DNA of 36,677 nt from Candidatus Gastranaerophilales bacterium (GTDB lineage Bacteria; Cyanobacteriota; Vampirovibrionia; Gastranaerophilales; Gastranaerophilaceae). Below the pieces are notes generated by a model, which worked only from the letters and a program-made list of their open reading frames with translations, ran no database searches and was not told the DNA's origin. The stretch's first letter is position 1, and each line of letters begins with the position of its first letter. The position numbers were made by a program, and so were the translations under genes. The stretch spans positions 1-36,677 of the forward strand of contig CALVBV010000007.1 of NCBI GenBank assembly GCA_944325815.1, read 5' to 3'. Shown piece after piece: positions 7,021 through 32,992 of this stretch.

Positions 7021-7049
7021 TTGACAAAAACATTTTTATAAGTTATACT
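7021..7049 (+). promoter_or_regulatory. Consensus sigma-70-type promoter TTGACA-N17-TATACT
   Basis: TTGACA at 7021-7026 and TATACT at 7044-7049 with ideal 17-bp spacing. Expected initiation is near 7056, inside the palindrome that starts at 7046. It would produce a leader of about 250 nt before the gene at 7304. Confidence 0.75.
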
Positions 7050-7083
7050 TTCTTTGTATCGATATATCGATACAAAGAAAGTA
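7046..7083. repeat. 38-bp perfect palindrome overlapping the -10 and start site
   Basis: The two 19-bp halves are exact reverse complements with no central spacer (centre between 7064 and 7065, core TATCGATA repeated). It covers the -10 box and the predicted start site. It could act as a large operator, or give the transcript a 5'-terminal hairpin. Confidence 0.85.
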
Positions 7084-7303
7084 CGTCGAAATGAATAAAA
7101 TTGTAATCGTAAATTTGAATAGAAATTGGTGGCGCGGGTTAGTTTAACTACCCGGATTTTACTATTCTATTCTAAATTTTGGGTAGTTAAAGCCTGAGGG
7201 GTTTTGTCTGCTCAAATTTAAGCTTGTGAAAGTTAAAAATTGTAAACAAAATTTTTCAGGTTAGGCAATTTTCGAGTTTCACAAGTTTTAGGAATGTGCA
7301 GTC
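7084..7303 (+). ncRNA. Structured leader (putative cis-acting RNA)
   Basis: No coding sequence is supported. Two helices compete for the same bases: a hairpin CGGGTTAG/CTACCCG (7135-7142, 7148-7154) followed by a short T-run, and an 11-bp pairing TTTAACTACCC (7143-7153) with GGGTAGTTAAA (7181-7191). A further stem CTTGTGAAA (7223-7231) with TTTCACAAG (7277-7285) ends 4 nt before AGGA (7290-7293). The arrangement suggests an attenuator or a riboswitch-like leader. I do not match it to a known class. Confidence 0.45.
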
Positions 7304-8512
7304 ATGACAAAAGTAAATAACGATAATCTAATTAATACTCTGCCAAAAGCGCTAAAGCCTGCTGCAAAGTTTGTAAGGCATCAGGAACAGGCGTCAGGGC
7401 TTTCTACGTCAAGATTTATTCAGGATGTTACTACCTGTTTGATACCGAAAGCAGTTTTTTCAAGAAGTTTGGCGGATTTAACCGAGAATACTTTTTTGGA
7501 AGTTTCTGAGGAAACTTTAATCTATTTTGTGCCTACAATTTTAGGCCAGCATGTTGCAAGGAAGGTTTTTTCTAAGGGACTAACTCCTGATTTAAAGAAA
7601 GATGTTGCAACAACAGGCGTAGAGCTTATGGAAAAAGCTGACAAGGTAAAGAATAAGAAGATTTTACCTATTAAGGCGGCTATTGCACTTGCTGCAATGG
7701 CAATACCCCTTACAGAGTTTTCTTTGAATTATATTAAAAACCTTATGACGCTCAAAATTTTTAATAAGAGTGACTTTAAGAATATTGCATCATTGGAAAA
7801 CACAAAAGAGGACAAGGCTCATCAGGAAAAGGTAAGAAAAAGTGCAAAAAGGCATATTGGGCTTGCAGGCGGAGTTTATGCAGGATGTCTGGGATTAGCA
7901 GGTTTACTTGCAACAAAGGGCAAAAATTCTAAAATACTTCAAAATATCTCGGAATTTATTGTTGCACCCGGGACAAAATTGTTTAAAAATGCCCCAAAAA
8001 CAAAGAATTTTTTTAATAAATATTTATGTATGGATTTTAACCATACTAAAAAGGGAGAGTTGTGCTTGAGTAAAGGGCAGCTGACGACTTGCGTACTTAC
8101 AGGAGGCGTTGGATACTTTGGCGCTTCTGCAGATAGAGGCAAAGAAAACTTGAAAGAGACTGCAACAAGGTTTCCATTAGTGGCACTTTATGTGATTACA
8201 GGAAGTGAATTGGTTGAACAGGGATTTAGAAAATTGCTTTATAAAATGGGAAAATGCAGGGATTTAATAGACAAAGACTTAAAAGTCCCTGAATTTGATA
8301 AACTGAAAGGTTTAGCAGAAAAGCTTGCGCTTGAAAGAAATTCTTCAGTCGAGAAAGAGTACAAGTCACTTGTAAAACAAAAAGTCTTAATAAAGGGGCT
8401 GCCTTATATTTTCTCAATCGGAGTGATGGGATTCTTTGTCGCAGGTATGACGGTTCATTTTACGAAAAAAAGATATGAAAATGCTAAAAAACAAAAAAAT
8501 GGCGGGATTTAA
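7304..8512 (+). CDS. Multi-pass membrane protein of unknown function
   Basis: A 402-residue protein that I cannot assign to a functional family. The first ~120 residues look soluble. About five hydrophobic segments follow, near residues 125-145, 185-207, 262-278, 285-300 and 365-388. Between them are Lys-rich stretches, with a basic C-terminus (KKRYENAKKQ). Proteins beginning in this manner (a short polar head, then FVRHQE and a series of small-residue helices) are, as far as I recall, frequent in Gastranaerophilales; that is recollection. It is driven by the consensus promoter and structured leader upstream, so it is likely regulated and well expressed. AGGA lies about 10 nt before the ATG. 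Confidence 0.7.
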   Translation: MTKVNNDNLINTLPKALKPAAKFVRHQEQASGLSTSRFIQDVTTCLIPKAVFSRSLADLTENTFLEVSEETLIYFVPTILGQHVARKVFSKGLTPDLKKDVATTGVELMEKADKVKNKKILPIKAAIALAAMAIPLTEFSLNYIKNLMTLKIFNKSDFKNIASLENTKEDKAHQEKVRKSAKRHIGLAGGVYAGCLGLAGLLATKGKNSKILQNISEFIVAPGTKLFKNAPKTKNFFNKYLCMDFNHTKKGELCLSKGQLTTCVLTGGVGYFGASADRGKENLKETATRFPLVALYVITGSELVEQGFRKLLYKMGKCRDLIDKDLKVPEFDKLKGLAEKLALERNSSVEKEYKSLVKQKVLIKGLPYIFSIGVMGFFVAGMTVHFTKKRYENAKKQKNGGI

Positions 8513-32635: not shown

Positions 32636-32663
32636 TTGACAAGATTTTTAGTAATAATATACG
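32636..32663 (+). promoter_or_regulatory. Possible promoter antisense to tRNA-Pro
   Basis: TTGACA (32636-32641), 16 bp, TATACG (32658-32663). It points into the antisense strand of tRNA-Pro and on into repeat R3. The -10 is weak. Confidence 0.3.
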
Positions 32664-32669
32664 ACAAAA

Positions 32670-32743
32670 TCGGGATGACAGGATTCGAACCTGCGGCCCC
32701 CGCGACCCGAACACGGTGCGCTACCAAGCTGCGCTACATCCCG
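32670..32743 (-). tRNA. tRNA-Pro (anticodon CGG)
   Basis: A 74-nt cloverleaf: acceptor CGGGATG/CATCCCG, D arm GCGC-AGCTTGGTA-GCGC, anticodon stem-loop CCGTG-TTCGGGT-CGCGG giving CGG, T arm GCAGG-TTCGAAT-CCTGT, and discriminator A. CCA is not encoded. Its 5' half recurs in pieces at the ends of the repeats at 185-366 and 32773-32938. Confidence 0.95.
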
Positions 32744-32772
32744 ATTTTGTTGTATTTAATTTTCTGTTGGAT

Positions 32773-32938
32773 GCAGCTTGGTATATCTATATACGGCTCG
32801 CCTCACCTGCCATCCATCAAAATGATACTTAATCATTTTGTCGGAGTCCTTGGCTCGCCTCACATCTGTTCGGCCTCGCCTGCCATCCTTTCGAAACGAT
32901 ACTTAATCGTTTCTCAGGAGTCCTTGCTACATCCCGAT
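32773..32938. repeat. Copy R3 of tRNA-associated hairpin repeat (166 bp)
   Basis: Same element as R2, minus a 16-bp segment. It lies immediately 5' of tRNA-Pro on the tRNA's strand. Hairpins are at 32819-32839 and 32893-32913, both intact. Read on the minus strand it begins AAAATCGGGATGTAGC, the same 16 bases that cover the upstream edge and first 11 bases of the tRNA, and it ends ACCAAGCTGC, the inverted D arm. Confidence 0.9.
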
Positions 32939-32992
32939 TTTATCGTACTATAAATTTATTATAAATCCCAAATACGAAAAATCAAGAAAAAT

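Follow-up and report, generated by a model that had tools for sequence, protein, structure and literature searches.

A 38-bp perfect palindrome lying over the start site of a consensus promoter in Candidatus Gastranaerophilales probably works like a TrpR-type operator, placed in front of what reads as a tryptophan attenuator. The claim is that the palindrome works like a TrpR operator, not that it is one. The DNA analyzed (hereafter the window) is a stretch of 36,677 nucleotides in which the promoter, the palindrome, a short leader peptide, and a set of alternative RNA helices precede a gene at 7304. With a palindrome on its start site and a tryptophan-sensing leader behind it, this gene looks double-locked by tryptophan supply. 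The promoter region contains:

7021..7049, forward strand: promoter TTGACA-N17-TATACT, read from the sequence, with −35 and −10 retained in relatives.
7046..7083, no strand: 38-bp perfect palindrome, proposed TrpR-type operator over −10/+1 (sequence, conservation, comparison with trpR promoters).
7054..7075, no strand: nearly invariant 22-bp core TTGTATCGATATATCGATACAA, defined on 32 distinct sequences.

The −35 hexamer TTGACA (7021-7026) is separated by a 17-bp spacer from the −10 hexamer TATACT (7044-7049). The palindrome (7046-7083), composed of TACTTTCTTTGTATCGATA followed directly by TATCGATACAAAGAAAGTA, is a perfect, spacerless repeat of 19+19 bp that starts inside the −10 and covers the expected +1; an 18-bp frame, GTATCGATATATCGATAC, occupies 7056-7073 within the core. 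Base composition predicts 4e-7 such palindromes in the window, where the runner-up has arms of 7 bp. Thus, the promoter and palindrome reported at 7021-7083 in the preliminary description of this DNA are borne out, as is its remark that so long a spacerless palindrome is rare by chance. The genome search that it proposed, carried out with a 26-mer and up to 3 mismatches, found a single copy. Within the window, there is no further exact copy of TTTGTATCGATA and no evident HTH gene adjoining the palindrome. Separately, similar short reading frames (..KMILNHFGGVLGSPHFRS..) at 40-468 and 32636-32953, near both window ends, suggest a dispersed repeat.

A DNA search recovered the locus in most of the 65 genomes of the window's genus. 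A survey of 383 genomes from the family placed the core in this genus only, once per genome. The preliminary description had named, as findings that would count against its reading, a lack of conservation in close relatives and dispersal as a repeat; close relatives do keep the palindrome upstream of their orthologues of the 7304 gene, and neither the window's genome nor any other in the genus holds more than one copy. Its position relative to the −10 is conserved genus-wide. Some relatives have lost the palindrome or carry a decayed version, and the leader, where readable, is retained there. The simplest reading puts the palindrome at or near the root of the genus, with several losses or decays later, although the downstream-protein tree on which this history is drawn cannot by itself separate gain from loss.

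The preliminary description left two roles open, a repressor site or a 5′ hairpin in the transcript. In 32 distinct intact sequences, the 22-bp core changes at only three positions, always in one arm and with no compensatory partner, and the would-be loop of the hairpin is equally invariant; this is not the pattern of a conserved stem in a 5′-terminal RNA. The flanks of the core differ among genomes, yet inside each genome the pairs 1, 3, and 4 outward tend to remain complementary (p ≤ 0.0002 in a permutation test that ignores the relatedness of the sequences). Each of these covarying pairs links a base before the expected +1 with one after it, which precludes an RNA stem unless transcription initiates unusually near the −10. 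For the same reason, the earlier rule, which took covarying halves as a sign of RNA, cannot be used in its stated form, since the covarying bases reach outside the RNA. Both the constancy of the core and the covariation of its flanks upstream of +1, as read from sequence, favor a candidate DNA operator over an RNA hairpin, which leaves the repressor half of the earlier proposal as the preferred one and the hairpin half as a rival. In that rival, transcription would begin at G7056, and a blunt hairpin, GUAUCGAUAUAUCGAUAC, would protect the 5′ end or tune translation of the leader peptide. The position and spacing suit such a role: the ribosome-binding sequence of the leader peptide directly follows the hairpin, the arm beside the leader start supplies an AAGG-like ribosome-binding sequence in many relatives, and the site in one genome (G057) departs from the core on both sides. 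Given the uncompensated stem changes, the invariant loop, the covariation outside the RNA, and the relatives that keep the leader without the hairpin, we consider this explanation quite improbable, noting that DNA and RNA roles of the palindrome are not mutually exclusive.

The preferred reading, a TrpR-like operator, draws on palindromes at trpR-trpB promoters in genomes that lack the 7304 gene. The −10 of these promoters is directly adjoined by a palindrome, typically GTTTCTATGnATAGAAAC, which, judging by its position, would be TrpR's own site; several other genera carry an additional GTTACTATTGACAGAAAC over the −35. GTTTCTATGnATAGAAAC and the window core GTATCGATATATCGATAC share the 18-bp frame, and 6/8 half-site bases agree (about 1.4% by chance). 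Intermediate sites exist at the window's own locus in relatives, namely GTATCTATAAATAGAAAC in G057, GTATCTATGTACAGAAAC in G024, and GTATCTATGTAACGTAAC in G029; the latter two genomes carry TrpR, and their spacing from site to −10 equals that of the window. The palindrome overlaps the −10/+1 of the promoter, and a tryptophan leader follows downstream, as would be expected at the promoter of a tryptophan-related gene. Against a TrpR operator stand the absence of a recognizable TrpR from all 15 palindrome-bearing genomes searched (neither PF01371, at its cut-off, nor a custom profile gave a match), the negative score of the window core against a matrix of trpR-promoter sites (44th among window 18-mers), CPR copies in coding DNA or away from TrpR genes, the rarity of the site in the CPR class sampled (see below), and the failure to find a U-tract terminator in the window's genus. 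With no TrpR homologue and a negative matrix score, the site is served by a repressor that has diverged or taken TrpR's place, or else part of the likeness is coincidental, which is why the claim is restricted to a palindrome that works like a TrpR operator. The missing TrpR and weak matrix score would also fit an operator for a regulator unrelated to tryptophan, for instance of the TetR or MarR type, with only a coincidental likeness to trpR promoters. This we hold to be unlikely in view of the tryptophan leader directly downstream, the intermediates found at this locus in G024 and G029, both of which have TrpR, and the TrpR-family genes that neighbor copies in CPR.

Outside the family, a few CPR genomes hold one to four exact or near-exact copies of the palindrome, some in coding DNA (L121, L122, L125-L127, L142, L184-L189). 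In a Kaiserbacteria genome, a TrpR-family gene (Pfam E 3e-8) is flanked by exact copies, and in a Curtissbacteria genome another TrpR-family gene is immediately preceded by a copy with one mismatch; the other CPR copies are inside coding DNA or distant from TrpR genes. The idea of a general CPR element was rejected, as the palindrome occurs in 1/285 genomes sampled from the class of G406. No viral copies were found. The copies in CPR coding DNA, together with the several losses and decays within the genus, might be expected of a mobile or self-perpetuating palindrome that owes its symmetry to quasi-palindrome correction and has no regulatory role. A core that stays nearly invariant while leader identity among relatives falls to about 70%, a fixed placement relative to the −10, and a single copy per genome make such an origin very improbable.

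Directly downstream of the palindrome lie a tryptophan leader peptide and an attenuator, on which the preliminary description was silent. All of the following are on the forward strand:

7091..7147, forward strand: leader peptide MNKIVIVNLNRNWWRGLV*, with tandem Trp codons at 7127-7132 (TGGTGG in 38/38 leaders; synonymous Leu variation).
7135..7154, forward strand: attenuator hairpin 1:2, CGGGTTAGTTTAACTACCCG (fold, sequence).
7144..7190, forward strand: alternative helix 2:3, TTAACTACCC (7144-7153) with GGGTAGTTAA (7181-7190), retained with substitutions in 22 leaders.
7181..7213, forward strand: candidate alternative hairpin 3:4 (GGGTAG..CTGCTC), a rival of 2:3 with no U-tract after it (sequence inspection).
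7198..7257, forward strand: helix 4:5, GGTTTTGT with ACAAAA.., with two-sided changes in several pairs among 22 leaders.
7220..7288, forward strand: stem ahead of the gene start, pairing AAGCTTGTGAAAG.. with ..TTTCACAAGTTT; AGGA comes next (inverted repeat I2, fold).
7304..8512, forward strand: 402-aa Trp-free protein, predicted all-helical, probably membrane, of unknown family (sequence, profile searches, predicted structure).

TGGTGG is present in all 38 palindrome-bearing leaders, while the neighboring Leu codon takes the forms TTG, TTA, CTG, CTA, and CTC. A short reading frame with ..WWR or ..WWC near its end is found in all readable leaders of the genus, whether the palindrome is present or not, and a leader peptide with WW or WWW precedes 16/17 orthologues in other genera of the family. 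In some loci (L083-L088, L026), the ATG of the leader peptide sits about at the expected transcription start, and the leader may be translated there from a leaderless message. The RNA from 7056 to 7320 folds much better than shuffled sequences (z −5.8). After the Trp codons it offers mutually exclusive helices, of which 2:3 and 4:5 are supported across 22 leaders and 1:2 and 3:4 are alternatives by sequence. In several other genera the attenuators are of the textbook kind, a 3:4 hairpin followed by a U-tract; no hairpin with a U-tract was seen in the 22 leaders of the window's genus, so the switch could act at transcription or at translation. No Rfam trp leader family matched by covariance model above its gathering score, the best match being Trp_leader_2 on the wrong strand (20.2 bits; gathering score 100). 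On sequence grounds, the leader reads as a ribosome-mediated tryptophan attenuator.

The gene behind the attenuator belongs to a family of proteins of ~400 aa, 70-93% identical to the window protein within the genus. The predicted structure is all-helical (mean pLDDT 77), and three clear hydrophobic segments indicate that it is probably a membrane protein. No family was found for it in Pfam or NCBIfam, and no relative among PDB sequences or PDB folds. For one protein of 402 aa, containing no Trp is unremarkable (P = 0.08); across 42 orthologues, which are related to one another, there is 1 Trp in 16,844 residues, against about 106 expected at the window background of 0.63%. Orthologues with a leader in other genera contain no Trp, except for one with a single Trp, while six paralogues without a leader contain one to three each. 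The L092 orthologue, which has no visible leader, is likewise Trp-free. Most likely, we infer, the protein helps a Trp-auxotrophic cell obtain tryptophan.

The lineage has no tryptophan biosynthesis: IGPS is missing from 64/66 family genomes and present in 14/14 control genomes, and TrpE/PabB is missing from the window's genome. Within the genus, TrpB is found in 8/13 genomes that lack the 7304 gene and in 1/18 (a partial copy) that bear it (p = 0.0012, not tree-corrected). Other genera follow a weaker trend (5/18 gene-bearing versus 9/17 gene-lacking, p = 0.18). In eight TrpB-bearing, gene-lacking genomes of the genus, trpR adjoins trpB. This correlation, uncorrected for the tree, fits two alternative routes to tryptophan, one through the 7304 gene and the other through trpR-trpB. 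Operons of trpR-trpB occur in Gastranaerophilales that lack the Trp pathway (L190, L191, L193, L194, L229-L232, L236-L238, L243, L244); their palindromes abut the −10, with a second copy over the −35 in several genera, and they likely serve indole salvage. In G024, trpR is not beside trpB and is instead divergent from a CstA-like transporter gene (L192:2834-4649). A literature search on tryptophan control in Gastranaerophilales found nothing relevant.

In general terms, the proposed control can be rationalized into three steps. (i) Repression: with ample tryptophan, the palindrome over −10/+1 would be bound by a repressor, which would block RNA polymerase. (ii) Attenuation: transcripts that escape would face a second check by the tryptophan attenuator. 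When charged tRNA-Trp is scarce, the ribosome would stall on the tandem Trp codons at 7127-7132 and keep segment 1 unpaired, so that segment 2 could pair with segment 3. (iii) Expression: formation of helix 2:3 would allow expression of the downstream gene, whose Trp-free and probably membrane-bound product would aid tryptophan acquisition in a Trp auxotroph. A more specific version is possible but tentative: once TrpR had been lost, the operator came to serve another repressor, giving a double tryptophan lock on a new type of Trp-free membrane protein for tryptophan acquisition that, in this lineage, replaces TrpB-based indole salvage.

The control region of the E. coli trp operon combines a TrpR operator with the trpL attenuator, and its trpO contains two self-complementary tetramers 8 bp apart. 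The window shares with it the consensus promoter, a palindrome over the start, self-complementary tetramers 8 bp apart, a WWR leader peptide, and alternative helices. The two differ in the tetramer (TCGA in the window core, CTAG in E. coli), in the lack of detectable TrpR in palindrome-bearing genomes, in a controlled gene that is not a biosynthetic enzyme, and in the absence of a visible U-tract terminator in the window's genus. The QacR operator IR1, of the TetR family, is also a long spacerless palindrome over a transcription start; it has the same layout as the window palindrome but is unrelated in sequence and physiology. Chlamydia trachomatis trpRBA (PMC7755916) is a TrpR-controlled tryptophan salvage operon of an auxotroph, to which tryptophan-dependent attenuation adds a further level of control. 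It resembles the trpR-trpB operons of the sister genomes; the window locus differs in having neither trpR nor trpB and in having a dedicated short peptide as its leader.

These observations provide a first regulatory clue to the protein family, and the tryptophan leader, together with the near-total avoidance of Trp, suggests a role for its otherwise anonymous members. They place trp-operon logic ahead of a gene outside biosynthesis, in gut bacteria that are auxotrophic, and offer a natural series in which operator, repressor gene, and controlled gene come and go among relatives.
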